From contig LUGL01000003.1 of assembly GCA_002796835.1 (NCBI GenBank), positions 3,252-58,380 on the forward strand: a stretch of DNA of 55,129 nt, read 5' to 3'. The DNA is from Elainella saxicola E1. Lineage in GTDB: Bacteria; Cyanobacteriota; Cyanobacteriia; Elainellales; Elainellaceae. Shown here piece after piece: positions 21,937-35,925 of this stretch. A model generated the notes under the pieces. It was not told the origin of the DNA. It saw nothing but the letters and a program-made list of their open reading frames with translations, and made no database searches. A program made the position numbers and the translations under genes. Position 1 is the first letter of the stretch; each line of letters begins with the position of its first letter.

Positions 21937-22323
21937 ATGGATGGTCTACCTGAATTTCTGACTTACGAGGAAGTCGTTGAAGTCGATCAAGCGTTACTGA
22001 CGGCTCAAGATAAGTTTTTGGCGCGAGTTTCGCTTTACTCTTTGCGCGTATTGAAACAAATTGCCCAAACAGAACAGTTACCCGTAGAAGCCATCACCGA
22101 TCAGCAAATTGCCCATTGGATCGAACAGGATGAGACGCTACGAGAAATGATTAGCTCCGACGCCGCGTTTGAACAGTTTTTTATTCAGCTCGTCCTTTCT
22201 TCCTTACAGCCTTTGCGGCAAATTTCCCAAGAAACAAACCTGCCGATCGATGATTTGACGATTCAGCAGGTCGTAAACTGGTTTGAGCAGCAGGCCAAAC
22301 AGCGTTTAGAAAATAATCGTTAA
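21937..22323 (+). CDS. Small protein with two copies of a helical domain
   Basis: I recognise no named family. The 128-residue protein contains two similar segments of about 37-40 residues: ARVSLYSLRVLKQIAQTEQL... with AITDQQIAHWIEQD, and IQLVLSSLQPLRQISQETNL... with LTIQQVVNWFEQQ. Each looks like two or three helices, so the protein is an internal duplication. It is soluble, acidic, and has no signal. The ATG is preceded by AAGGCGG, directly after the hairpin element at 21826-21921. It converges with the sigma-like gene. A regulatory or adaptor role would fit but is a guess. Confidence 0.75.
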   Translation: MDGLPEFLTYEEVVEVDQALLTAQDKFLARVSLYSLRVLKQIAQTEQLPVEAITDQQIAHWIEQDETLREMISSDAAFEQFFIQLVLSSLQPLRQISQETNLPIDDLTIQQVVNWFEQQAKQRLENNR

Positions 22324-22335
22324 CCGACAGAGCAC

Positions 22336-23037
22336 TTAGCGAGACTCATAAATTGGCTCTAGTGGATCCAACCGGAAGATATCTTCTAGCTCTTCCCGTT
22401 CTTCGTTAAACCGATCGCGCCAAGAGCGATTCAGATAAATTTTGCAGACATCTTCTGGTAGAGCCATTTCCAACTGCTGATAGCCTTCTTCTAGCTCTAG
22501 TTTCACTTCTTGAGGAGAAATGACCTCTCCCTCGGCTTGAAGATAGGCTGAGATGCGAGGTTCGCTCCAGTGGAAGGTTTGAGCCATCAAGACAATAAAA
22601 CGCTGACGCGGCATCAACCGATCGATCGCTTGCTCAACAAAACACCACAGCGGAGGAGACGCAGCCTGCAATGAGTAGTTGATTTCTTCAACGGGGGGCA
22701 GTTCTACCCGATTGATGCAGAGAGCCGTCATTTGAATCAGCCAGCTTTGCAGAGAAAAATTTGGATTTTGCTCCAGCTTTTCATTGATATCTAATCCGCC
22801 CAGCTCATAGTAGAGATGCCGCCAGGTCACTGCAAATAAATAATTGGCTTGTGCTGGAGAGCGGATCGAATGTTGAATCAGGGAATAGACGATCGGGCTG
22901 TAGCGACAAAAGATCGCCACAAAATATTTGCCGCTTTCGGGATAGCGCTGAAATAGCGTCAACAGCTCACGATCGCTATGGTGATGCAGCTCTTGGACGA
23001 GGGCGTGATTACATTCAGGGAAAGAAGGAATATGCAT
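22336..23037 (-). CDS. Sigma-70/ECF sigma-factor-like protein
   Basis: The start at 23037 gives MHIPSFPECNHALVQELHHHSDRELLTLF..., a beginning I associate with a cyanobacterial sigma-like family. The middle has a helical region (FVAIFCRYSPIVYSLIQHS) placed like sigma region 2, and AIDRLMPRQRFIVLMAQTFHWSEPRISAYLQAEG looks like region 4, which binds the -35 element through its helix-turn-helix. The homology to true sigma factors is weak and the protein may not bind core polymerase. The C-terminus is acidic. It is divergent from the first TPS exoprotein gene, so it could be a local regulator of that locus; this is inference. Confidence 0.7.
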   Translation of the reverse strand: MHIPSFPECNHALVQELHHHSDRELLTLFQRYPESGKYFVAIFCRYSPIVYSLIQHSIRSPAQANYLFAVTWRHLYYELGGLDINEKLEQNPNFSLQSWLIQMTALCINRVELPPVEEINYSLQAASPPLWCFVEQAIDRLMPRQRFIVLMAQTFHWSEPRISAYLQAEGEVISPQEVKLELEEGYQQLEMALPEDVCKIYLNRSWRDRFNEEREELEDIFRLDPLEPIYESR

Positions 23038-23180
23038 TATTTTGTACCCCCAAGACCATGGCTCAGAACAAGGATCGATCGCTAGATGCGACGAAATCGC
23101 TCTCATGATACTCAGAAGTTTTAGAAGTGACACAACTTTGCAAAATTTAATTCTTGCCCTTGAGCATGCGACCGATCGAG

Positions 23181-23186
23181 TATAGT
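23181..23186 (+). promoter_or_regulatory. Candidate -10 element for the first TPS gene
   Basis: TATAGT lies 59 bp before the TTG start of the first TPS gene. The equivalent TATATT lies at the same distance in the second copy, inside a duplicated upstream region. Conservation across the copies supports it. No clear -35 is visible. Confidence 0.35.
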
Positions 23187-23244
23187 TTGACTTGGAGTTT
23201 CTGATTGGGCCTTCTCGCTTCCCCTATTTAAATTGTCCGGTATC

Positions 23245-26200
23245 TTGAAGCGCAATTCTTTCCTCGTTGCTCTGTTGATTGTTGCTGTCACTTCCCTAAA
23301 AGCTGAGGCACAGATCAACCCTGATCATACACTTGGCCCAGATCGTTCACGTCTCACACCTGCATCCGATCGAACCGTAATTGAAGGAGGGGCGAGGCGA
23401 GGTCGCAATTTATTTCACAGTTTTCGAGAATTTAATGTTGAGACAGGGCGATCGGTTTATTTCGCCAATCCGGATGGTGTGCAGCGCATTTTTGGTCGCG
23501 TCACAGGCTCGAATCGTTCCAACATTCTGGGTACCCTGGGCGTTCTAGGCAATGCCGATCTGTTTTTGATCAATCCCAATGGCATTTTGTTTGGGCCGAA
23601 TGCTCGCTTGGATGTGCGGGGTTCGTTTCTGGCCACCACCGCCGATCGGGTTTTGTTTCACAACTACAGCTTTAACGCCAGCAATCCCACTCCACCGCCG
23701 CTACTGACAATCCATAGGCCGATCGGGCTGCAAATGGGGGCAACGCCTGGAGCCATTCGGATGGAAGGCAATGCGACAACCAAAACCCAATTTTCTGTAC
23801 CTAATAGCGAAACCTTTGGCCTCTTGGGCGGCAACGTGACCCTAACCAATGCTGAGATCACAGCTCCATCGGGACGGATTAATCTCGGCAGTCTGCGATC
23901 GGGAACGGTCAAGCTAACTGAAACAGGGACTGGCTTTCGCTTGGAATCTCCGGTTCTGCCGATCGATCCAACGTTTGAGGGCGACAATGTTTTGCTGGAC
24001 AATGCCCGACTGTTTATTGCTGAACAGGGTGATGTGGTGGGGAGTGCGTCCGATCGTGGCATCTATTTTTTGGGGAACAACATTCAGCTCCACAATCAGT
24101 CTGATGTGGAAATCAACAACAACAGCAGCAGTCATGGTGGTCCGATTCGGGTTGATGCAAACCGGTTGCGCCTCAGCCTGGGGGGAAAACTGGAAACAAC
24201 AAGTTCACTACAGGGAATTGGTGGCGAAATTATTATCAATGCTGCTGATCAAGTGACTCTGATTGGGAATAACCCGGTAGACCCTCTTCGTATCAGCAAT
24301 ATTCTCACTGCATCGGATACGGTGGGACGGGGTGGAGATATTCGGATTCAGACTGGCCGACTACAGCTTCGTCAAGGGGCAGAAATCATCAGTTTCGGCA
24401 ATCGTGCAGGCCGAGGTGGAGATGTAACCATACGAGCCTCTGAATCTATTACTGCAACTGGAATTCCGACGACTCGACCCCAGGGCGGCAGTAATATCGG
24501 GGCGGTAGTTTGGGGAAGTGGCCGTGGCGGCAATATTCACATCGTGACTCCCCGCTTAGTTTTGCGAGATGGTAACCGCGTTCAGGCCGTCTCAAATAGT
24601 AGTGGGCACGGGGGCAATATTACGATCGAGGCAAATACGATCATTGCCGAAGGATTTAATCCTAAACTGCCTTTTTTTCCATCTGGGATTGTGGCGCTTC
24701 CCTTAAATAGCGGTGACGGAGGTGACATTCGCGTCATAACTCAGAATCTCGACCTATCTAGAGGCGCAAATCTCAGTACTGCTTTGGCCAGCAACTATGA
24801 GGTTTTGACCTTACTGACGGGCGGAGAGTTTGATGCGGTGAATGCAGGTACAGGCAATGCCGGGAATCTCCGAGTTCAAGCGAACCGCATCCTGATTCGG
24901 GGGGGCAATCCTCGACTTCCCGATAATCCAACCCAGCTCAGCAGTGTTACCTTTGGCCAGGGTGATGCTGGAGATGTCGATGTCTCAACCCGCGAATTAA
25001 CCATCCTGGATGGAGGCGCATTACTCTCTGCTTCGCTGCTTTCCCTGTCTGTGCTTGGTACTCCGCTACCCACTTCTGGGCGTGGCAATGGTGGCAACTT
25101 GACGGTGAATGCAGAAAACATTCTTTTGGATGGGCTCAACCGTCAATTAGGGCTGAGCAGTTTGCTAGGAACTCTGGCAGGTGGATTTGGCCAAGGCGGC
25201 AATACACAAATTCGCACAGGAAATCTAACGGTTAGGAATGGTGGCACGGTTAATTCAGGTACCTATGCCGTTGGTAATGCCGGACGTTTAGCGATCGAAG
25301 CTGATTCAATTCAGGTAGAAGGGGTGCATGCTAGTGGTCAACGATCGGCCATTGGTACCTTTGCCGATCGACCCGATCCCACCCTGAGAGAAGCCTTTGT
25401 GTTGCCTGCCCGACCCACCGGAGATACGGGAGAACTGACGATTCAGAGTGATTACCTCAATGTTGAGGATGGCGGACTAATTAGCGTTCGGCATCAAGGC
25501 AGTGGCAATGCAGGACGCATGCGATTGCGCGTTAATCAGCTTCAGCTGAATGGAGGAGAGCTGTCAGCCGAAACGGCTTTAGGGCAGGGGGGGAATATTA
25601 CCGTTCAGTCTGATACCTTGTTGCTGCGCCAGAATAGCCAAATCACGGCAACCGCATTGGGTGGAACCGGGAACGGCGGCAACTTAACGCTGAACTCTGA
25701 ATTGATTGGCACTTTGCCCAATGAAAATAATGACCTGATCGCCAATTCAGTCGGCGGCAACGGCGGAGAGATTAATCTCACTACACCCCTTTTGGCTGGA
25801 TTTGAACCGCGCGATCGCCTCACGTCTGAAAGCGACATCACGGCCAGCTCTGAGTTGGGCATTGATGGCACGATTCGGATTCTCTCGCCCAACATTGATA
25901 CCAACCAATTGACAACTGAACTGCCTGAAGCACCTTTGGATAGCAGCGATCAAATCACCACAGGCTGTCCTGCCGATCAAGAAGCCTCTTTTGTGGTCTC
26001 AGGCCGAGGTGGGCTTCCAGCAACCCCATCTGACATCCTCAATCGCACAGTTTGGCAAGATGATCGCGTAGACTCAACTCCCCCAGAATCTTACTCCTCT
26101 CTTTCTAACCGAAGCGATGCTGCTGCCAATTCTGGTGGCCCGATCGTTGAGGCGCAAACTTGGGTTTTGAACGATCGCGGACAAGTAGAACTCAGGCCAA

Positions 26201-26271
26201 CGCTATCTGCAATGAGACCAAGCAACAGGAACTCTGCCCTGTGTTTCGCGAACCAAACTGGTATGCAGTAG
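23245..26271 (+). CDS. TPS-type filamentous hemagglutinin-like exoprotein, copy 1
   Basis: This 1008-residue secreted protein starts at a TTG that is conserved with its tandem paralogue; there is no suitable ATG. A signal peptide (MKRNSFLVALLIVAVTSLKA, cleavage near AEA) is followed by a TPS domain, with NADLFLINPNGILFGPNA and RLDVRGSFLATTADRV as key motifs. The long middle is a beta-helix of repeats containing GxGGxI and DGG. The C-terminus has GCP (C908), the motif FVVSGRGGLPATP, VWQDDR and a final Cys at C1000, nine residues from the end; these are the only cysteines. The TPS domain should be recognised by an outer-membrane TpsB pore, which is not in the window. A role as a surface adhesin is likely. 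Confidence 0.9.
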   Translation: MKRNSFLVALLIVAVTSLKAEAQINPDHTLGPDRSRLTPASDRTVIEGGARRGRNLFHSFREFNVETGRSVYFANPDGVQRIFGRVTGSNRSNILGTLGVLGNADLFLINPNGILFGPNARLDVRGSFLATTADRVLFHNYSFNASNPTPPPLLTIHRPIGLQMGATPGAIRMEGNATTKTQFSVPNSETFGLLGGNVTLTNAEITAPSGRINLGSLRSGTVKLTETGTGFRLESPVLPIDPTFEGDNVLLDNARLFIAEQGDVVGSASDRGIYFLGNNIQLHNQSDVEINNNSSSHGGPIRVDANRLRLSLGGKLETTSSLQGIGGEIIINAADQVTLIGNNPVDPLRISNILTASDTVGRGGDIRIQTGRLQLRQGAEIISFGNRAGRGGDVTIRASESITATGIPTTRPQGGSNIGAVVWGSGRGGNIHIVTPRLVLRDGNRVQAVSNSSGHGGNITIEANTIIAEGFNPKLPFFPSGIVALPLNSGDGGDIRVITQNLDLSRGANLSTALASNYEVLTLLTGGEFDAVNAGTGNAGNLRVQANRILIRGGNPRLPDNPTQLSSVTFGQGDAGDVDVSTRELTILDGGALLSASLLSLSVLGTPLPTSGRGNGGNLTVNAENILLDGLNRQLGLSSLLGTLAGGFGQGGNTQIRTGNLTVRNGGTVNSGTYAVGNAGRLAIEADSIQVEGVHASGQRSAIGTFADRPDPTLREAFVLPARPTGDTGELTIQSDYLNVEDGGLISVRHQGSGNAGRMRLRVNQLQLNGGELSAETALGQGGNITVQSDTLLLRQNSQITATALGGTGNGGNLTLNSELIGTLPNENNDLIANSVGGNGGEINLTTPLLAGFEPRDRLTSESDITASSELGIDGTIRILSPNIDTNQLTTELPEAPLDSSDQITTGCPADQEASFVVSGRGGLPATPSDILNRTVWQDDRVDSTPPESYSSLSNRSDAAANSGGPIVEAQTWVLNDRGQVELRPTLSAMRPSNRNSALCFANQTGMQ

Positions 26272-26301
26272 GACGACATGGGCATTCCATGGGCGATCGC
26301 G

Positions 26302-26307
26302 TATATT
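26302..26307 (+). promoter_or_regulatory. Candidate -10 element for the second TPS gene
   Basis: TATATT lies 59 bp before the TTG start at 26366, matching TATAGT in copy 1. The flanking sequence is also shared (CGATCG before it, TTGGAGTTTCTG and GTCCGGTATC after it), so the promoter region was copied with the gene. Confidence 0.35.
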
Positions 26308-26365
26308 TTGGTTTGGAGTTTCTGGGTGGGCATCCTCGCCTGCCTTATTCAAATCGTCCGGTATC

Positions 26366-29300
26366 TTGAAGCGCTATTCTTTCCTTGTTTCCCTATTGGT
26401 TGTGGCTGTTGCTTCCTTAAAAGCTGAAGCACAAATTAACCCAGATAATACGCTTGGACCAGACCAATCGCGTCCTATTGCTGAATCCGATCGCATGCTC
26501 ATTAAAGGGGGTGCCAGACGAGGTCACAATCTCTTCCACAGCTTTCGTGACTTTAATGTTGGAGAAGGCCAATCGGTTTATTTCAACAATCCCGATGGCG
26601 TGGAGCGCATCTTTAGCCGCGTCACAGGCAGGCAGCGATCGAACATTCTCGGCACGTTGGGGGTTCTGGGCAATGCCGATTTGTTTCTGGTTAATCCCAA
26701 CGGAATTCTGTTTGGCCCGAATGCTCGTTTAGATCTGCGGGGTTCGTTCCTAGCGACGACAGCCGATCGGATTTTATTTGACGACTATCGTTTTAGCGCC
26801 ACCAACCCCACTGCCCCACCCTTACTAACAGTGCATACGCCGATCGGACTGCAAATGGGGACGAGTCCTGGGACAATTCGAGTGGAAGGGAATGCCATCA
26901 ACAGAACCCCATTTTCTATTGCCAATGGAGAAACGTTTGGCCTCCTGGGTGGCAACCTTGTGCTAACAAATACTCAAATTAATGTGCCATCGGGACGGAT
27001 TGAGTTGGGCAGTCTGCGATCGGGCCAGGTGAACCTAGAGGAACCAGCAGTGGGATTTCGCTTGGGCTATCCGGTGCTGCCGATCGATTCGACGTTTGAG
27101 GGCGGCAATATTGAGATGAATAACGCCCGATTGTTTATTGCTGAGCAGCCAGATGCGGTGGGAAGTGCGTCCGATCGCGGCATTTATTTAGTGGGGAACC
27201 AGATTCAGCTGCACAACCAGACCGATGTGAGAATTCACAATACCAGTCGTGTGAACGGTGGCCCGATTCAGATTGACGCAACTTTGTTGCATCTTAGACG
27301 GGGCGCACGGATTGAAGCAATCAGCCAGACGCAGGGTTCTGGCGGCACCATAACTGTAAATGCTGCTGATCAAATTACTCTTCGTGGCACCAATCCCCTT
27401 GAACCTGAGCGCATGGGCGGTATTTTAACGGCATCTGAGCAGGTGGGCCGAGCTGGAGATATTCAGGTTCAAACTGCCCAGTTGCAGATTCGCCAGGGGG
27501 GAGAAATTGTCAGCCTTTCAGGGGCGACAGGCCGAGGGGGAGATGTGACGGTGCAGGCTTCTGAGTCCATCACTGCCACGGGTATTGCGACAATGCGGCC
27601 TACTGTTGGGAGCCAGATTGGTGCGTTTTCTCTGGGAAGTGGCAGGGGTGGCAATATTCATGTGATTACCCCACGTTTAGTTTTACGCGATGGCAACCGG
27701 GTTCAGACGGCCTCAAGTGGAAGTGGGCAGGGGGGGAATATTACGATTGAAGCAGACACCATCATTGCTGAAGGGTTTAATCCTAAACTGCTGATTTTAC
27801 CCTCTGGGATTGTTGCAATTCCCTGGAATAGCGGAGATGGTGGCAACGTTCGGGTTACAGCCCAAACCATTGAACTTTCTGGAGGCGCGAGTCTCAGCAC
27901 GGCTTTAGCCAGCAATTATGAGGTTTTCGTCTTCCTCACGGGTGGAGAATTCGATCCAAATACTGCTGGGACAGGCAATGCAGGCAGTGTGAATGTAAAA
28001 GCGGACAGTATTTTGATTCAGGGCGGTAATTCTCGTGGGCCGGATAATCCCAGCCAACTCAGCAGTGTCACCTTTGGTCAAGGCGATGCCGGAGATGTGA
28101 ATGTTTCGACCCGGCAGTTGACCATTCGAGATGGAGGTGCGCTCACCTCTTCTTCGTTTCTTTCTCTCTCTGTTTTAGCCCAGCCTCTGCCGACCTCTGG
28201 GCGCGGTGATGCCGGAGATTTAAGCGTGAATGCTGACAACATTCTTTTAGAGGGATTCAATACCCAATTGGGGCTAGGCAGTTTCCTCGGCACCCTTTCG
28301 GGTGGATTTGGTCAGGGTGGCAACGCCAGAATTCGCGCTGGCAATCTGACTGTGAGGAATGGTGGCACTGTCAATTCGGGGACGTTCGCGATCGGTAATG
28401 CAGGTCGTCTAGATATTCAGGCCGATTCAATTCAGGTGGAAGGCGTCCATTCTAGCGGCCAACGATCGGTCATTGGAACCTTTGCCGATCGGCCTGATCC
28501 GGCTCTGCGAGAAGTGTTTGTTCTGCCTCCTCGTCCAACGGGAGATACGGGAGAACTGACGATTCAGAGCGATCGCCTCAATGTCCAGGATGGAGGACTG
28601 GTCAGCGTGCGGCATCAAGGCAGCGGCAATGCTGGACGAATGCGGCTGCAAGTCAATCAGCTTCAGCTCGATCGCGGCACATTATCAGCAGAAACCGCTT
28701 TGGGGCAGGGTGGCAATATTACCGTTCAGTCTGATACTTTGCTGCTGCGCCATCAGAGCCAAATCACAGCAACGGCTTTAGGCGGCAACGGCGATGGCGG
28801 TAACTTAACGTTGAACGCTAGCATTATCGGGGCCTTGCAAACTGAAAATAGTGACCTGATTGCCAATTCGGTACGGGGCAGCGGCGGACAAATTAACCTG
28901 ACTACCCCGACTTTAGTGGGACTGGAACCGCACGATCGCCTCACGCCTCAAAGTGATATTACCGCTAGCTCTGAGTTGGGCATTGATGGCACCATCCGCA
29001 TTGTTTCTCCAAACATCAACACTAGCCACCTGATGACTCAACTGCCAGAGACTCCCCTGGAGAGGAGCGATCAGATTGTAGCGGGCTGTCCTTCTACAGG
29101 AGGTTCTACCTTTGTGGTCACCGGCAGAGGTGGATTACCCGCAACACCGGCAGAAGTGATGAACCGGGCTTTCGTTTGGCAAGATGAACGGCAACTGGTG
29201 AGTGATCCTTCTGCCCCAACAACATCGCCTGCCGCAATGGCTGATCGATCGATCGTCGAGGCTCAAGGATGGCGGCTCAATCTTCAAGGCCAAGTGGAAT

Positions 29301-29377
29301 TGATGGCCACTTCACCTCAGGCTGATCCCATCAATCCGGCAACGAGATGTGTCGTGAACGCCCGCTCTAAATCGTAA
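26366..29377 (+). CDS. TPS-type filamentous hemagglutinin-like exoprotein, copy 2
   Basis: A tandem paralogue of the gene at 23245, 1003 residues, with the same order: signal peptide (MKRYSFLVSLLVVAVASLKA), TPS domain (NADLFLVNPNGILFGPNARL), long beta-helix, and C-terminus with C908 in AGCPSTG, FVVTGRGGLPATP, VWQDER and C995. Most of the length aligns without gaps, but substitutions are spread throughout, including many silent ones, so the duplication is not recent. The TTG start and upstream 60 bp are shared with copy 1. The 94-bp gap between copies carries the copied promoter. It is followed by the CHAT gene on the same strand. The two could form a mixed fibre or be alternative adhesins. 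Confidence 0.9.
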   Translation: MKRYSFLVSLLVVAVASLKAEAQINPDNTLGPDQSRPIAESDRMLIKGGARRGHNLFHSFRDFNVGEGQSVYFNNPDGVERIFSRVTGRQRSNILGTLGVLGNADLFLVNPNGILFGPNARLDLRGSFLATTADRILFDDYRFSATNPTAPPLLTVHTPIGLQMGTSPGTIRVEGNAINRTPFSIANGETFGLLGGNLVLTNTQINVPSGRIELGSLRSGQVNLEEPAVGFRLGYPVLPIDSTFEGGNIEMNNARLFIAEQPDAVGSASDRGIYLVGNQIQLHNQTDVRIHNTSRVNGGPIQIDATLLHLRRGARIEAISQTQGSGGTITVNAADQITLRGTNPLEPERMGGILTASEQVGRAGDIQVQTAQLQIRQGGEIVSLSGATGRGGDVTVQASESITATGIATMRPTVGSQIGAFSLGSGRGGNIHVITPRLVLRDGNRVQTASSGSGQGGNITIEADTIIAEGFNPKLLILPSGIVAIPWNSGDGGNVRVTAQTIELSGGASLSTALASNYEVFVFLTGGEFDPNTAGTGNAGSVNVKADSILIQGGNSRGPDNPSQLSSVTFGQGDAGDVNVSTRQLTIRDGGALTSSSFLSLSVLAQPLPTSGRGDAGDLSVNADNILLEGFNTQLGLGSFLGTLSGGFGQGGNARIRAGNLTVRNGGTVNSGTFAIGNAGRLDIQADSIQVEGVHSSGQRSVIGTFADRPDPALREVFVLPPRPTGDTGELTIQSDRLNVQDGGLVSVRHQGSGNAGRMRLQVNQLQLDRGTLSAETALGQGGNITVQSDTLLLRHQSQITATALGGNGDGGNLTLNASIIGALQTENSDLIANSVRGSGGQINLTTPTLVGLEPHDRLTPQSDITASSELGIDGTIRIVSPNINTSHLMTQLPETPLERSDQIVAGCPSTGGSTFVVTGRGGLPATPAEVMNRAFVWQDERQLVSDPSAPTTSPAAMADRSIVEAQGWRLNLQGQVELMATSPQADPINPATRCVVNARSKS

Positions 29378-29601
29378 TTTAGACGTGATTTAGAATTTGC
29401 CACCTCAAGTGCTTTGCTTCTGTGAAGAACCAGCCAAATGCTTGGTAGAATTCGTCGAGCTTGGTACGATTAAGCAGGTCATTCAGACAAAGCTAAAGTC
29501 TGCCTCGACTATCCTCAAAGTTTGCATCCTGGACATTGTGTTTTGCTTGGCAAGGTTCTGCTTCAGAAACTGGCGCTCGCTCGCTGCCTCAACTCAAATA
29601 A

Positions 29602-29619
29602 GCTGAGTTCAAACTCAGC
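29602..29619 (+). repeat. Short perfect hairpin before the CHAT gene
   Basis: GCTGAGTT pairs with AACTCAGC across a two-base spacer, giving an 8-bp stem. It lacks a T-tract on either side, so it is not an obvious terminator for the TPS gene. Confidence 0.45.
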
Positions 29620-29644
29620 CCATTGGCTTCCTGTAATTGTCTTA

Positions 29645-29673
29645 ACTGGTTGATTTAGAAACGATCAACCAGT
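29645..29673 (+). repeat. 10-bp inverted repeat at the CHAT gene start
   Basis: ACTGGTTGAT and ATCAACCAGT are perfect reverse complements separated by nine bases. The repeat ends 27 bases before the ATG at 29701 and ten before the alternative GTG at 29683. It could be a dimeric regulator site or a stem that hides the start. Confidence 0.5.
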
Positions 29674-29700
29674 GGATGTCTTGTGGCTAGAATCGGCAAA

Positions 29701-32052
29701 ATGCGGCAACTGAAGCAAAAGCGATCGTCAAAGAAGGGGAAACAGCTTCACTCTTTATATGCTGTTCCAAAATCATTCAAACTCTGGTTAGTTGGAGGTT
29801 TCGCTTGCCTATTGGCGATCGCGCTCCATTTATGCATGATTCCTCCTCTTTATGCTGTATCGCCAGATGCTTTTTCGGTGTCTCTCTCGACAGCCCGATC
29901 GCTCAATCTCCAGGGGAATGAACAGCTCGAACGCGGCAATCCTCAGGCAGCGCTTGGGCTTTGGCAGCAAGCCGAGCAACAGTACCGCCATGCAGGCGAT
30001 GATCTGGGCGTATGGGGTAGTCAGGTCAATCAAGCAAAAGCCTTGCAAGCTCTGGGCTTTTATCGTCGAGCACAGTCTTTGCTGGAACCTGTCGTGCAGC
30101 AACTTGAGGCCCAGCCTGATTCGGCGCTGAAGTTAACAACGTTATTAAGCCTGGGGGATGTTCTGCGGTTACTTGGTAATTTAGCCGACGCCCAGGGAAT
30201 GTTGCAAACCAGCCTGGAGATGGCACAACGCTTACAATTGCCTGCTTACATTCAGGCGGCTCATCTCTATTTAGGCAACACGTTAGTAGCGCAGCAAAAT
30301 CCAGCCGCGATCAATCATTACCATCAAGCTGCTGCGATCGAGGGTCCACTACAAATCACTGCCCAATTGCGAGAGCTAGCGCTTCTGCCTGCATCAGATT
30401 CATCTAGCCAAAGTGTTCAGCTTGCAGCCCAAATTGCAACTCAGTTGAGTTCACTCCCTGCTAGCGCGGTCAGCATTTATGGTCGGATTGAATTGGCAAA
30501 ATGGCTGATCCAGTTCCCGGGAACTACCCCACTCTCTATTGCCGATCTGTTGACAACCGCCACTCAACAAGCGCAGGTTTTAGGCGATCGACGGGCTGAA
30601 TCCTATGCAATCGGCTATTTGGGCCACTGGTATGAACAGCAGCAACAGTGGGATACTGCACAACAATCCACCCAAACGGCATTAGCAATTGCTAATGAAA
30701 TGGATGCACCCGATGTTGCCTATCAGTGGCAGTGGCAGTTGGGGCGCATTTTCATTGCGCAAAATCAGCAGGCTGAAGCGGTGACAGCCTATGCGATGGC
30801 GGTTGATTCGCTGCAATCGATTCGGCAAGATCTGGTTGCCGTTGCTCAAGATGTCCAGTTCTCTTTTCGATCGCAAGTGGAGCCTGTTTATCGGGAATTG
30901 GTTGATTTATTGTTGTCTCCTCATAGTCCCGCACCGAGATCGAGCGCTCAACTAGCGCAGGCCCGTCAGACGATCGAAGCCCTCCAGCTGGCAGAGATCA
31001 ATAACTTCTTTCGAGAAGCTTGTCTGGAAACAGAACTGGCTGCCATTGACACGCTCGATCCGACAGCGGCGATCCTCTATCCGATCATTCTGCCGGACTG
31101 TCTGGAAGTGATTCTGGCTCTGCCGGGACAGCCGTTACGCCACTACACAACCCTGTTACCCCAAACCGAAATTGAAGCGGGAATTCAACGCATGCTGCAA
31201 TCTATGCGATCGACCTCGTTTGCAGCAGAGCGGTTGCCCGTCGCCCAAGAACTATATCAATGGCTCGTTCAGCCTGCTGCCGCTGAGTTAGAGCAAGCGG
31301 GGATTCAAACCCTGGTATTTGTGCTGGATGGCTCACTACGGAACCTGCCGATGGCCGCATTGCATGATGGCACTCAGTATCTGATCGAACAATATCGGGT
31401 TGCGGTTGCTCCCAGTTCTCAACTGGTCCGGGCAGTCGCTAAACCGCAGAAGCAGAAGGTGTTAGTCGGTGGCTTAAGTGAAGCAGTAGAAAATTTGGTT
31501 CCCCTGCCGGGAGTCATGCAGGAAATTTTGCAAATCCAGCAGGAGATGCCAACAGAAGTACTGTTGAATCAGCAATTTACGCCAACCGCTCTCAAAACGA
31601 AGGCAAAGCATCGACCTTTCACAATTTTGCATCTCGCCACCCACGGTCAGTTTGGTTCCACAGCTGAAGAGACGTTTGTTCAAACTTGGGATGGACGACT
31701 CACAGTAAAAGATCTACAAACGTTGCTGAAACAACAAGAAGATCTGCAAGGAATGCCGATCGACCTGCTCGTCTTAAGCGCTTGCCAAACGGCTCAAGGA
31801 GATAACCAAGCGGCTTTAGGCATGGCGGGTGTGGCCCTGCGATCGGGTGCAGCCAGTACCCTCGCAACCCTCTGGACCGTGAACGATCAATCCACTGCCG
31901 ATTTTATGACCCTGTTCTATGCCACGCTCAATCAACCGGGCATGACCAAAGCGGAGGCGGTGCGGCAGGCGCAACTTCATCTGATTCACCAAACCCGCTA
32001 CCAGCATCCCTTTTACTGGGCTCCTTTCATCCTGGTTGGAGATTGGTTATGA
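29701..32052 (+). CDS. Exported TPR-CHAT caspase-like protein
   Basis: The ATG at 29701 is chosen; a GTG at 29683 would add six residues. A basic start and hydrophobic stretch (LWLVGGFACLLAIALHLCM) indicate a signal peptide or anchor, with possible cleavage after LYA, so the protein acts outside the cytoplasm. Residues about 45-370 are tetratricopeptide-like helices (LNLQGNEQLERGNPQAALGLWQ, ALQALGFYRRAQSLLEPVV). The C-terminal CHAT domain has the catalytic pair H648 (ILHLATHGQFG) and C695 (LVLSACQTAQG), and ends in GVALRSGAASTLATLW. CHAT is a relative of caspases and gingipains. Its position after two TPS genes suggests those as substrates, which is inference. Confidence 0.93.
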   Translation: MRQLKQKRSSKKGKQLHSLYAVPKSFKLWLVGGFACLLAIALHLCMIPPLYAVSPDAFSVSLSTARSLNLQGNEQLERGNPQAALGLWQQAEQQYRHAGDDLGVWGSQVNQAKALQALGFYRRAQSLLEPVVQQLEAQPDSALKLTTLLSLGDVLRLLGNLADAQGMLQTSLEMAQRLQLPAYIQAAHLYLGNTLVAQQNPAAINHYHQAAAIEGPLQITAQLRELALLPASDSSSQSVQLAAQIATQLSSLPASAVSIYGRIELAKWLIQFPGTTPLSIADLLTTATQQAQVLGDRRAESYAIGYLGHWYEQQQQWDTAQQSTQTALAIANEMDAPDVAYQWQWQLGRIFIAQNQQAEAVTAYAMAVDSLQSIRQDLVAVAQDVQFSFRSQVEPVYRELVDLLLSPHSPAPRSSAQLAQARQTIEALQLAEINNFFREACLETELAAIDTLDPTAAILYPIILPDCLEVILALPGQPLRHYTTLLPQTEIEAGIQRMLQSMRSTSFAAERLPVAQELYQWLVQPAAAELEQAGIQTLVFVLDGSLRNLPMAALHDGTQYLIEQYRVAVAPSSQLVRAVAKPQKQKVLVGGLSEAVENLVPLPGVMQEILQIQQEMPTEVLLNQQFTPTALKTKAKHRPFTILHLATHGQFGSTAEETFVQTWDGRLTVKDLQTLLKQQEDLQGMPIDLLVLSACQTAQGDNQAALGMAGVALRSGAASTLATLWTVNDQSTADFMTLFYATLNQPGMTKAEAVRQAQLHLIHQTRYQHPFYWAPFILVGDWL

Positions 32053-32114
32053 CCACTGCCTTAGCATCCGCCCTGTCTCACAATCGCAAACCTCTATTTT
32101 AATTTTGTGCTTGT

Positions 32115-32837
32115 ATGCCAATGATCCCCTTTACGCATGTTGAAGCGAAACCTAGTCTGATTTTGCCGATCGTCCTGGCAGCCAGTGTTTTCTCGATTCC
32201 CTCCCCAGCGACAGCCGCGTTTGATCCACCGCCTGATCGAGGGGCTCCTGCCGGAACGGCGGGCGGAGGTTCGCGTTCGGTTGGGCAAAATTGTCTGCAA
32301 GATCCGCAAAGTTTGGAATCGTTTATTGCCCTTTCTCCCCAAAATTTTGTTGGCTTAACGGCAAGTGAACAACCTGAACTCTGGGTGTATGTGCCGCCCA
32401 CTGTAGCTAAAACGCTGGAATTTAGCCTATTTGACGATCAGCAAAACGGCGTTTATCAAGCCAATATTGCAGTCCCCCATGCCGGATTAGTCAAATTGCC
32501 GCTCCCGGAAACCGTCAAACTAGAACCCCAGAAGTTCTATTACTGGACTGCAGCCCTAGCTTGCGACACAACGCATCGCACTGATGATTGGGTGGTGGGA
32601 AGCTGGGTGAAATATCAGCCGATCGATCCATCCTTGCAGCAAGCACTGGCCCGGTCTAATCCACTGCAAAAGGTCGATCTCTATATCCAAGCAGGATTTT
32701 GGTATGAAGCACTGCACCAACTGACGGAACTTCAGAAAGTCCAGCCCAGCAGTCCTGACTTAGAAGCGCAGTGGGTGATTTTAATGCAGTCTGCCGGACT
32801 CAGTTTGGACCCGACGCACCTTTCAGCCCTACCTTAA
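32115..32837 (+). CDS. DUF928 family secreted protein
   Basis: The 240-residue protein has a signal peptide (hydrophobic PSLILPIVLAASVFSIP, cleavage after PATAA) followed by a Gly/Pro-rich linker with RGAPAGTAGGGSR, a hallmark of DUF928. The mature part is mostly beta (ELWVYVPPTVAKTLEFSLFDDQ, FYYWTAALACD) and ends with a short helical region. It holds two cysteines, which may form a disulfide. Function is unknown; the family is largely cyanobacterial and often found next to CHAT and CHASE2 genes, which is my recollection. It starts 62 bp after the CHAT gene and is probably in the same transcript. Confidence 0.9.
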   Translation: MPMIPFTHVEAKPSLILPIVLAASVFSIPSPATAAFDPPPDRGAPAGTAGGGSRSVGQNCLQDPQSLESFIALSPQNFVGLTASEQPELWVYVPPTVAKTLEFSLFDDQQNGVYQANIAVPHAGLVKLPLPETVKLEPQKFYYWTAALACDTTHRTDDWVVGSWVKYQPIDPSLQQALARSNPLQKVDLYIQAGFWYEALHQLTELQKVQPSSPDLEAQWVILMQSAGLSLDPTHLSALP

Positions 32838-32838
32838 A

Positions 32839-32935
32839 GCAGGTGACTTGAAGCAGGTGACTTGAAGCAATTGTGGAGTTGGTTGGCCACTGTTCGGATG
32901 AACTAACTGTTCGGATGAACTAACTGTTCACTCCA
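32839..32935 (+). repeat. Two sets of short tandem repeats before the CHASE2 kinase
   Basis: First, the 14-mer GCAGGTGACTTGAA occurs twice in a row (32839-32866). Second, the 17-mer TGTTCGGATGAACTAAC occurs twice plus a partial third (32891-32930). Each 17-mer contains the dyad GTTC-N4-GAAC, and the junction forms GAAC-N5-GTTC, so the set is an array of alternating palindromic half-sites. It lies in the 157-bp spacer between the DUF928 and kinase genes, a natural place for regulation. Confidence 0.75.
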
Positions 32936-32991
32936 CAAGAAATGCACTTTATTAAATTCCCATTTCTTAAGCAGGATATGAGCAACAGATC

Positions 32992-33081
32992 AGGGTGAAG
33001 GAGCTTAGGTTGAAGCAACTCAGGTTTAAGGAACTCAGCTTGAAGCAGTTGGGATTAAAGCAAGCCAGACCGAAGAAACTC
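32992..33081 (+). repeat. Six 15-bp repeats at the start of the kinase gene
   Basis: Units such as AGGTTGAAGCAACTC and AGGTTTAAGGAACTC run head to tail, the last two more diverged. They are in frame and encode imperfect five-residue repeats (LKQLR, FKELS, LKQLG). The region spans the proposed start, which makes the exact start uncertain. Confidence 0.75.
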
Positions 33082-35571
33082 AAACAGCCGTGGCAATTAG
33101 CAGCGATCGCCCTGGGTGTAACAGCTGCCACGATCGGCCTGCAATGGACAGGCACTTTCCAACTGCTGGAATGGGTGATTTTAGATGGCTGGTTTCGGTT
33201 GCGTCCTCCAGAAGCTCGACAAACTCCCGTTGTGTTGGTGTTAATCGATGAGACCGATATGGCGCAACTGGGCCGCTGGCCAATCTCAGATGGTCAATTA
33301 GCTCAGTTGATCGTCAAGCTTCAACAGCATCATCCAACCCTGATTGGACTCGATCTCTATCGTGATTTGCCCATTGAACCAGGCACTGCTGACCTGCATC
33401 AGGTTTTTCGAACCTCTCCTAACCTGATTGGCATTCAAAAAGCGATCGGAAATTCCGCAGGTTTTGCCGTTCAACCTCCTCCAATTCTGCGAGATCGGAA
33501 CCAGGTCGCCATCAATGATCTGATCCTGGATGTGGATGGGAAGCTGCGCCGCAATCTCTTCTCCATTCGGCAGCAAGATAAAACCAATTTGTCTTTGGGA
33601 GCGATGCTAGCGCTCACCTATTTGCAAAAGCAACAGATCCTGCCGCAAACCCAACCAGATGGCACAATCCAGCTCGGCAAAGCACATTTCCGTCCCTTAA
33701 CTGCAAATGTCGGCGGCTATGTCAGGGCAGATGTCGGCGGATACCAGACCCTAGCGAATTATTTGCGCCTCAAAGATGGCATGCCGACGCTGTTCTACCG
33801 AGATGTCATGGCCGATCGCGTGTCTTCAGACCTGCTGCGCGACAAGATTGTGTTGATTGGCATCAAAGCAGAGAGTGTTTGGGGCGATCGCTTCTATACT
33901 CCTTACACGACTCAAAGCACTGAAACCTGGGCAGGGGTAGAAATCCATGCCAACTTAGCGGCTCAAATCATTAGCAGTGCCCTGGAAGGCCGATCGCAAC
34001 TGCAAGGATTGCCAGAGCTGCTGGAATGGAGCTGGATTCTGCTCTGGGCCAGTTTGGGAACCGCCTATGGCTGGACTTTTCGATCGCTTAAGGGCGGAGG
34101 ACTGCGGTTGTTGCTGGCGATCGCGATCTTAACTAGCGCCACCTATGGATTATTTCTGCTCAATTGGTGGACTGTGCTGGTTAGCCCCTGCGTGGCTTTT
34201 ATTGCAGGTGGATTGTCGAGCAGAGGCTATTGGATTTGGCGGACTTTGAAGCAAGCCAATCAGACCCTGGAAGCAACCGTAGCAGCCCGCACGCAAGAAC
34301 TTCGAGAGAAAAATTCGGCATTAGAGGCAGCCCGCATCCAAGCTGAAGCCGCAAACCAGGCTAAAAGCATGTTTCTGGCTAGCATGAGTCATGAGTTGCG
34401 CACCCCTCTGACCGCAATTTTGGGATTCAGCGATCTGCTTAGTCACTCTGCCACCCTGGCACTAGATGAACAAGAATATCTCGCTATCATCAACCGTAGT
34501 GGGGAACACCTCTTAGGTTTAATCAACGATGTCCTGGAATTGGCCAAGCTTGAGGCCGGTTCCACAAAGCTGCAACTCGTTGCGGTAGAGCTGCCTACAT
34601 TACTAACGAATCTGGAACGGATGTTTTCTCTAAAGGCAGCCGCTAAAGAGTTGATCCTTCAGTCCGACTATTCGAATGACTTGCCTATCTGGATCCAAAC
34701 CGATGAGGGCAAACTGCGCCAAATCTTGATCAACTTGCTGGGGAACGCCATCAAATTCACGCAGGCAGGCAGTGTCACCTTACGGGTGAAGCCGATCCAA
34801 TCCGGCTCTGACGATCGGTCCAACAGTCACTGCACTGGGGAAAGATCTGCTTTAGGGGTATGCCAGACGCTGCAATTTGAAGTTGAGGATACGGGGATTG
34901 GCATTTCTGCAGCAGACTGCAAACAGTTGTTTCAACCCTTTTTTCAGGCAGCCGCAGGTATTGAGTCGGGCATTGGCACCGGGCTGGGGCTGTCTATCAG
35001 TCGTCAATTCGTTGAATTGCTGGGTGGAAGGATCGGAGTAAATAGCATCCTCGGACAAGGCAGTACTTTTCATTTTGAGATTCCGGTTCAGGTTTTGCCA
35101 AATCCGGCTGCTTCTAACAATCCGGCTAAACCGAAAGTCTGGAAATTAACACCCCAGTCCCCTTGCTATCGCGTCCTCGTGGTCGATGATCAGTCAGATT
35201 GCTGCCTGCTGCTGACCCAGTGGCTAACCAATGCTGGGTTCGAGGTCAGTATGGCGATTAATGGAAAGGAGGCGATCGGCCAATGGCAAGTCTGGCAACC
35301 CCATCTCGTCTTGTTAGATATTCATCTTCCCGATCTGGATGGTTATCAAGTCGCGCACTACATTCGCACTAATCGGACCAGTCCCCAGGATGATTCCGCC
35401 GCTTCTTTGCTCCAGGCTGAACCAGCCATTATTGCCTTAACAGCAGGCGGCGTTAAAGAGAACCGTAGCGACATCTTGGCCGCAGGTTGTAATGATGTGA
35501 TCTGGAAGCCGATCAAAGATGATGAGGTCTTCACGAAGATTGCCGAGCATTTAGCGGTGACCTATATTTAG
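32995..35571 (+). CDS. CHASE2 hybrid sensor histidine kinase
   Basis: The protein has 858 residues if it starts at the GTG at 32995. A basic tandem-repeat N-terminus (residues 1-30) leads to a membrane helix near residues 33-50. A CHASE2 extracytoplasmic sensor follows to about residue 330 (VVLVLIDETDMAQLGRWP at its start, DKIVLIGIKAESVWGDRFYTP near its end), then about three membrane helices, the H-box with H466 (MSHELRTPL), HATPase boxes (NLLGNAIKF, DTGIG, GTGLGL), and an intact receiver with D775 (LVLLDIHLPDLDG) and a conserved Lys (WKPI). CHASE2 senses an unknown signal outside the membrane. It is last in the TPS-CHAT-DUF928 block and could report on the surface module; no separate regulator is adjacent. 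Confidence 0.93.
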   Translation: MKELRLKQLRFKELSLKQLGLKQARPKKLKQPWQLAAIALGVTAATIGLQWTGTFQLLEWVILDGWFRLRPPEARQTPVVLVLIDETDMAQLGRWPISDGQLAQLIVKLQQHHPTLIGLDLYRDLPIEPGTADLHQVFRTSPNLIGIQKAIGNSAGFAVQPPPILRDRNQVAINDLILDVDGKLRRNLFSIRQQDKTNLSLGAMLALTYLQKQQILPQTQPDGTIQLGKAHFRPLTANVGGYVRADVGGYQTLANYLRLKDGMPTLFYRDVMADRVSSDLLRDKIVLIGIKAESVWGDRFYTPYTTQSTETWAGVEIHANLAAQIISSALEGRSQLQGLPELLEWSWILLWASLGTAYGWTFRSLKGGGLRLLLAIAILTSATYGLFLLNWWTVLVSPCVAFIAGGLSSRGYWIWRTLKQANQTLEATVAARTQELREKNSALEAARIQAEAANQAKSMFLASMSHELRTPLTAILGFSDLLSHSATLALDEQEYLAIINRSGEHLLGLINDVLELAKLEAGSTKLQLVAVELPTLLTNLERMFSLKAAAKELILQSDYSNDLPIWIQTDEGKLRQILINLLGNAIKFTQAGSVTLRVKPIQSGSDDRSNSHCTGERSALGVCQTLQFEVEDTGIGISAADCKQLFQPFFQAAAGIESGIGTGLGLSISRQFVELLGGRIGVNSILGQGSTFHFEIPVQVLPNPAASNNPAKPKVWKLTPQSPCYRVLVVDDQSDCCLLLTQWLTNAGFEVSMAINGKEAIGQWQVWQPHLVLLDIHLPDLDGYQVAHYIRTNRTSPQDDSAASLLQAEPAIIALTAGGVKENRSDILAAGCNDVIWKPIKDDEVFTKIAEHLAVTYI

Positions 35572-35925
35572 CGGTGATTGAGCCGTGACCTATATAAGCC
35601 GTGACCTATATAAACCGATCGATACGAACTCAGGCCCCCAGAACGCGAAGCTGGAACGAAGCCACTCTACAGAAGTATGCCGATCGACGTGGATTCTTCG
35701 CATATTTGCCATAGAGTTAACCTGATGCCAACCCTGCCCTTAACGGAAAAATGCGCGATCGAGCCATTCTGCTTAAGTCAGCCTTATGCTAACCAGTAGA
35801 TTTTCTTGTGTTGTTCTAGTCCATGGGAAAAACCTGACAACGGTATACTATTCGAGAAGGCTAGCGAAAAAACTTCATACGAACTCAGTAGCCAGCCCCC
35901 CAGTTTACTCAGCTCAGCAAACAAC
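35572..35925. other. Spacer between the kinase and ndhA
   Basis: This 354-bp stretch begins with short repeats (35581-35612) and has no supported gene. It should contain the ndhA promoter. An ORF that extends the ndhA frame upstream to 35806 starts at TTG and does not look like NdhA, so I treat it as spacer. Confidence 0.6.
35581..35612 (+). repeat. 16-bp tandem repeats just after the kinase stop
   Basis: AGCCGTGACCTATATA occurs twice in a row. A related copy, AGCGGTGACCTATATTT, forms the end of the kinase reading frame at about 35553-35569, and a shorter relative lies between. The C-terminus of the kinase and the repeats thus share an origin by slippage or unequal exchange. Confidence 0.7.

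Follow-up and report, generated by a model that had tools for sequence, protein, structure and literature searches.

Two exoproteins, a putatively exported CHAT protein, a DUF928 protein and a CHASE2 kinase are encoded side by side in the cyanobacterium Elainella saxicola E1. Do these genes form a functional unit, and what could such a unit do at the cell envelope? The question arises from a stretch of 55,129 nucleotides (the window; contig LUGL01000003.1, C111 in our numbering) of an 8.7 Mb genome with 43 CHAT, 14 CHASE2, 10 DUF928 and 15 two-partner-secretion (TPS) matches. The families are known singly and parts of their neighbourhoods have been noted before, among them a WD40/CHASE2/DUF928 cluster in one Nostoc. 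A sequence-only reading of the window had proposed a self-contained module in which CHAT trims or releases the adhesins, DUF928 assists and CHASE2 senses the result. The comparative analysis reported here leaves us with little doubt that the five genes form a functional unit.

Gene layout and domain composition

The five genes lie on the + strand between positions 23233 and 35571, and each product was identified by Pfam with scores far over the cut-off, in agreement with the families named earlier. The first two encode tandem TPS exoproteins sharing 71% identity, TPS1 (23233–26271, +, 1012 aa; Pfam PF05860, 1.5e-55; TIGR01901, 6e-26) with its TPS domain at residues 26–265, and TPS2 (26366–29377, +, 1003 aa; PF05860, 1.8e-56) with its TPS domain at residues 22–261. 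The module had previously been taken to begin at 23172; this is corrected here, as TPS1 starts with TTG at 23233 or, equally likely from the alignment with TPS2, at 23245, and TPS2 starts with TTG at or near 26366. Tail alignment delimits a C-terminal two-cysteine domain in both exoproteins: in TPS1 this domain comprises residues 890–1008 (25900–26256, +), carries the motif GRGGLP and has C912 and C1004 as its sole cysteines, and in TPS2 it comprises residues 886–999 (29021–29362, +) with C908 and C995.

The third gene (29683–32052, +; Pfam CHAT, 1.8e-62) encodes a 789-aa protein in which a hydrophobic N-terminal export segment is followed by a TPR superhelix and a CHAT domain (residues 519–787). 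Conservation points to a predicted catalytic dyad spanning 31642–31785 (+), formed by H654 (31642–31644) in the motif HLATHG and C701 (31783–31785) in the motif LSACQT. Both residues are invariant in 40 relatives, and the pair is thus intact as first read; CHAT fold and His/Cys dyad together place the protein in clan CD. Its structural model (pLDDT 83) has Csx29 as nearest PDB fold, with separase also near, and the type III-E Csx29 family model NF041237 did not match the window protein (20 bits, cut-off 300). Csx29 of the craspase and separase share the combination of TPR superhelix and CHAT protease fold; in contrast to these intracellular proteins, the TPR-CHAT protein of the window is predicted to be exported. 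The fourth gene (32115–32837, +; Pfam, 2.3e-48) encodes a 240-aa DUF928 protein with a signal-peptide-like N-terminus, an Ig-like sandwich and TPR-like helices (model pLDDT 85), and the fifth (32995–35571, +) an 858-aa hybrid histidine kinase for which Pfam assigns an extracytoplasmic CHASE2 domain (44–356), HisKA (456–522), HATPase (570–699) and a receiver (727–849).

Read by eye, the N-termini of both TPS proteins, the CHAT protein and the DUF928 protein look signal-peptide-like, consistent with the earlier prediction that all non-kinase products leave the cytoplasm. As in two-partner secretion (type Vb), the N-terminal TPS domain follows such an N-terminus, and the partner pore gene is missing from the locus, as had been noticed: no TpsB (ShlB) gene occurs within the module, and about five ShlB genes are found elsewhere in the genome, with one each in or beside related modules on contigs C222, C136 and C93. 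The kinase ends in its receiver and no output gene adjoins it. The module can therefore not be called self-contained, since it depends on a TpsB from outside and its receiver lacks an adjoining output gene. The intergenic gaps (305 bp between TPS2 and CHAT, then 62 and 157 bp) suggest that co-transcription is likely in part only, and the 305-bp gap means that a single transcript is not assured. Promoter and terminator matches in the module were no commoner than in shuffled DNA.

Linkage and recurring layouts in other cyanobacteria

In the Elainella genome, nine of the ten DUF928 genes have a CHASE2 gene no more than about 6 kb away. The linkage was quantified in ten near-complete cyanobacterial genomes of other genera, using a distance of 10 kb, the stronger CHAT matches among those listed, and 5000 independent rotations of each family. 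Among the 48 DUF928 genes, 30 had a CHASE2 neighbour, 20 a CHAT neighbour (among the matches listed) and 19 a TPS neighbour, against rotation means of 1.6, 2.5 and 1.2, respectively. All three partners occurred within 10 kb of 14 of the 48 genes (rotation mean 0.003, maximum 2), so that the neighbour enrichment put forward earlier as a check of the module is borne out. A second, independent set comprised 80 named loci chosen around window-type CHAT. Of these, 36 exceed 20 kb and contain DUF928 (31 loci), CHASE2 (29) and TPS (28); 22 of the 36 have all three families, and a single one has none of them.

The four families recur in two layouts across the sampled genomes. Layout 1, the window type, has the order TPS(-TPS)-CHAT-DUF928-CHASE2/HK/RR in many genomes, and a second receiver-kinase gene often comes next. 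This gene overlaps or abuts CHASE2-HK-RR in many such modules (L087:13229-14533, L090, L099, L105 and L109) and is absent from the window. The gaps between TPS and CHAT genes on the same strand have a median of 53 bp, with overlap in 13 of 53 cases. Layout 2 has the order sigma-like–DUF1822–CHASE2–DUF928 and usually faces CHAT and TPS genes. The sigma-like gene, DUF1822 and CHASE2 stand beside DUF928 at L044, L045, L050, L075, L111, L148, L153 and others; the CHASE2 protein carries an N-terminal CHAT-like domain where scanned. Of the CHASE2 proteins encoded near DUF928 in the sample, this N-terminal-CHAT-like class is the most frequent (22), followed by cyclases (21) and HK-RR proteins (13), and GGDEF and GGDEF-EAL outputs also occur. 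The cytoplasmic output of CHASE2 thus varies between cyclase, GGDEF, EAL, HK-RR and N-terminal CHAT, and the partnership with DUF928 is constant.

Part of layout 2 has been described as EACC2-caspase systems with ECF sigma factor and DUF1822 (Kaur et al. 2021), without mention of DUF928. These systems have a caspase-clan domain, CHASE2, DUF1822 and a sigma factor in common with layout 2, the second of the arrangements in which cyanobacteria carry DUF928, CHAT and TPS. In the window, by contrast, the CHASE2 protein is an HK-RR without fused caspase-like domain, and neither DUF1822 nor a sigma gene of the EACC2 type is present. The related sigma-DUF1822-caspase-CHASE2 genes have been proposed as conflict systems (Kaur et al. 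2021), and CHAT and caspase-like proteins are common in such systems, which could suggest a contact-dependent conflict or cell-death device whose TPS proteins recognise neighbours and whose CHAT serves as an effector set free in the producing cell or in other cells. We consider this the least probable of the alternatives and very unlikely, given that the TPS tails form one conserved two-cysteine family rather than variable toxin tips and that the insert contains no immunity gene. Layout 2 also recalls the Csx29-Csx30-sigma logic of protease, inhibitor and sigma factor, with a membrane sensor replacing RNA sensing; the part of the inhibitor that is cut could here fall to DUF1822.

Several variants were also seen. 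A TPS exoprotein is fused to its own TpsB in a single chain at L143:1434-5825 (TPS, POTRA_2 and ShlB by Pfam) and, judged by length and C-terminus, at L153:13227-17609 and probably L111:2797-7122. Locus L256 (G091:C3:4225000-4244000) has five TPS domains in 13 kb, one of them in a 270-aa ORF, and at G000:C1:6274-34644 at least seven CHAT matches follow one another on one strand over 28 kb, outside the TPS/DUF928 module.

Insertion borders and plasmid copies

The gene on the left of the module (22336–23133, −), which is divergent from ndhA (35806), is single-copy, conserved in 28 of 30 relatives and kept beside ndhA in cyanobacterial relatives. In 12 relatives, two of them of the same genus, it and ndhA are divergent neighbours only 0.3–1.3 kb apart, against 12.7 kb in the window; the whole stretch between them (23134–35805) is absent there. 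This indicates that the five genes behave as a single block that was either acquired at this site or deleted in other genomes. In four genomes of the same genus no close relative of the DUF928 protein was found, the best matches showing 36–40% identity. The divergent gene was considered as a module member and rejected because it adjoins ndhA even where the module is absent. Its product is weakly sigma-region-4-like (17 bits, below cut-off) and matches no family over cut-off in Pfam or NCBIfam. A neighbouring ORF (21937–22323, +) encodes a 128-aa protein with an internal repeat and without a Pfam family at E 0.001, and it adjoins the sigma-like gene in several relatives.

Related modules also occur on plasmids: plasmid pA of Kovacikia minuta carries TPS-CHAT-DUF928-CHASE2/HisKA_3 and a LuxR-type regulator, and Gloeothece pP742401 has CHAT, DUF928 and CHASE2 amid transposase genes. 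Such copies, together with the patchy distribution, are what speaks for a simple co-travelling of multi-copy envelope-family genes on accessory islands without joint function. We regard this explanation as improbable, since gene order is fixed across genomes, partners co-vary specifically within genomes, the match between CHAT and exoprotein tail described below holds regardless of adjacency, and TPS-CHAT fusions exist.

The exoprotein tail and CHAT

In unfused TPS proteins the C-terminal domain is some 110 residues long and carries the motif TGRGGLP. Its two cysteines are kept in 71/71 and 70/71 sequences of the seed alignment, and the passenger is cysteine-free in 97 of 117 proteins. Of 122 complete unfused ORFs, 116 have the tail domain; the other six are short or broken (83–359 residues, once 680). 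None of the 13 complete TPS-CHAT fusions has it; their C-terminus is formed by CHAT, which thus substitutes for the tail. Two points speak against a role of CHAT at a periplasmic tail: 29 complete TPS genes encode this tail without a CHAT gene in their vicinity, so that a linked CHAT is not required, and the CHAT part of the fusions may work extracellularly.

Co-variation connects CHAT with this domain. Over 65 TPS-CHAT pairs, the CHAT domain correlates with the tail at r = 0.71 and with the TPS N-domain at r = 0.36; tail and N-domain of the same TPS protein correlate at r = 0.38, and the partial correlation of CHAT and tail given the N-domain is 0.67. Even higher, at r = 0.78, is the correlation of the tail with the TPR part of the CHAT protein. 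When pairs were re-assigned inside multi-copy genomes, none of 2000 shuffles reached the observed value (nearest 0.67 vs 0.70). Physical linkage was considered as the cause and rejected, as the difference persists in 28 pairs in which the TPS 3′ end does not adjoin CHAT (CHAT-tail 0.72, CHAT-N-domain 0.30); the corresponding values in eight pairs with CHAT on the TPS 5′ side are 0.76 and 0.50. Co-variation and linkage test together indicate a specific match between CHAT and the tail domain. The comparative data thereby support a role of the exported TPR-CHAT protein at the two-cysteine domain of the exoprotein, and for TPS1 we propose that this domain is both a periplasmic anchor and the partner of CHAT.

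What CHAT would do there can be read in two ways. Trimming or release of the adhesins, as suggested from the outset, is the mechanism that we favour on the sequence data, with the two-cysteine domain as its probable site. Alternatively, CHAT could be a maturation or quality-control factor that acts on the exoprotein while it is secreted, by folding, plugging or clipping it, with DUF928-CHASE2 reporting secretion stress. The replacement of the tail by CHAT in the fusions, where CHAT does not accompany the tail, and the co-variation between the tail and the long TPR part are in line with this second reading, and CHAT might be a scaffold instead of a protease; on the other hand, the His/Cys motif pair is found in 134 of 138 CHAT domains, beyond the need of a pure scaffold, and we consider a maturation role unlikely, at about one chance in five.

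DUF928 as probable partner of the CHASE2 sensor

Between modules, the distances of DUF928 and CHASE2 correlate most tightly (r = 0.65), followed by CHAT-CHASE2 (0.58), CHAT-DUF928 (0.56), CHAT-TPS N-domain (0.34) and TPS-DUF928 (0.32). When partners were re-paired inside multi-module genomes, the observed values were reached in none of 1000 shuffles, except for CHAT-TPS (8 of 1000); as the sequences are related, these figures are descriptive and not exact probabilities. A module, as first suggested, is strongly supported by linkage, conserved order, partner co-variation within genomes and insertion in one piece. The co-variation could, however, also arise if matched parts were inherited together as a cassette and their products did not touch.

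The best fold match of the DUF928 model is the C-terminal domain of MtxA (VIA-align Z 10.6 over 153 residues), the second-best reaching Z 6.8; the many Ig/Fn3 matches at Z 6–7 were set aside as a common arrangement. A DUF928 profile search of PDB sequences gave no match at E 0.1, MtxA included. In magnetotactic bacteria, mtxA precedes a conserved CHASE2-adenylate cyclase gene, according to the MtxA paper, so that a similar fold adjoins CHASE2 in another phylum. Like MtxA, DUF928 combines an Ig-like domain followed by TPR, export (by eye) and a gene beside CHASE2, and its model aligns over both domains; unlike at the window locus, no TPS or CHAT gene has been reported at mtxA, and the two proteins have no detectable sequence similarity. 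The BiofilmReg operon of Burkholderia likewise encodes an exported partner beside a CHASE2 kinase. This partner is FecR/LysM rather than DUF928, and CHAT and TPS are lacking. An effect of such CHASE2-HK (LysM-FecR) operons on biofilm has been reported for Burkholderia, and on a Paraburkholderia replicon we found a CHASE2 kinase gene overlapping a LysM-FecR gene, with an Ig-like match below cut-off at the partner's end. The earlier wording that DUF928 assists can be made more specific; given the tightest co-variation and the MtxA-like fold, DUF928 is better put as a dedicated partner of the CHASE2 sensor.

Proposed mechanism and comparison with known systems

The C-terminal disulfide domains of HMW1 and HxuA are kept in the periplasm and lock these proteins in the TpsB pore, and CdrA of Pseudomonas aeruginosa is thought to use a cysteine hook, with LapG cutting its periplasmic tail for release. 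Considering these findings, we propose an accessory envelope cassette that couples a transmembrane sensor to surface-protein processing, in which (i) the exoproteins would exit via a TpsB pore encoded elsewhere; (ii) the two-cysteine tail would stay behind in the periplasm and act there as disulfide anchor, as for HMW1 and CdrA; (iii) CHAT, as a caspase-clan cysteine protease in the periplasm, would cut or hold the tail and so control exoprotein retention; (iv) DUF928, as periplasmic Ig-TPR partner of CHASE2, would relay the state of CHAT and tail to CHASE2; (v) CHASE2 would drive the HisKA-receiver phosphorelay, with the signal flowing from outside to inside. We give this chain as a whole even chances. 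That CHASE2 senses the result of CHAT action, as anticipated before, is plausible.

The CdrA-CdrB-LapG-LapD system is similar in having a TPS adhesin that is retained by its C-terminal tail in the periplasm, where a cysteine hook has been proposed, a tail-cutting periplasmic protease, to which a putative cleavage by CHAT would correspond, and a transmembrane regulator. The window differs in that CHAT stands in for LapG and a CHASE2 kinase for the c-di-GMP receptor LapD, and in encoding DUF928 in addition. No LapG, LapD or LapA homologue is found among the five proteins, for which Pfam gives only TPS, CHAT/TPR, DUF928 and CHASE2-HK-RR, and the relationship is one of analogy: the best reading is that the window system may work like LapG/CdrA with unrelated parts. 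Following this precedent further, control could run inside-out as in LapD/LapG, with an internally set CHASE2 binding or freeing DUF928 and CHAT and thereby gating tail cleavage. The parts list would be the same and the co-variation of CHAT with CHASE2 (r = 0.58) fits as well; the enzymatic outputs of CHASE2 proteins (kinase, cyclase, GGDEF, EAL) are, in contrast, receptor-like and not effector-like, and we rate inside-out control as unlikely as the maturation role.

We found no account in the open-licence literature of the combined module, of the CHAT-tail relation or of the DUF928-MtxA relation, nor any work there joining CHAT domain, hemagglutinin and cyanobacteria, or CHASE2 and CHAT domain. 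The system could, at slightly less than even chances, represent a new class of envelope signalling, with an exported CHAT dedicated to the TPS tail and a DUF928-CHASE2 readout with exchangeable output, independent of LapG/LapD, and with DUF928 and MtxA as a cross-phylum family of periplasmic CHASE2 partners. Many cyanobacterial CHAT, CHASE2, DUF928 and TPS copies of no known function would thereby be tied into one testable system, in which DUF928 gains a role as sensor partner and CHASE2 a candidate input. Caspase-family proteins would be placed beyond the inner membrane, where they might regulate surface adhesion and the formation of biofilms.
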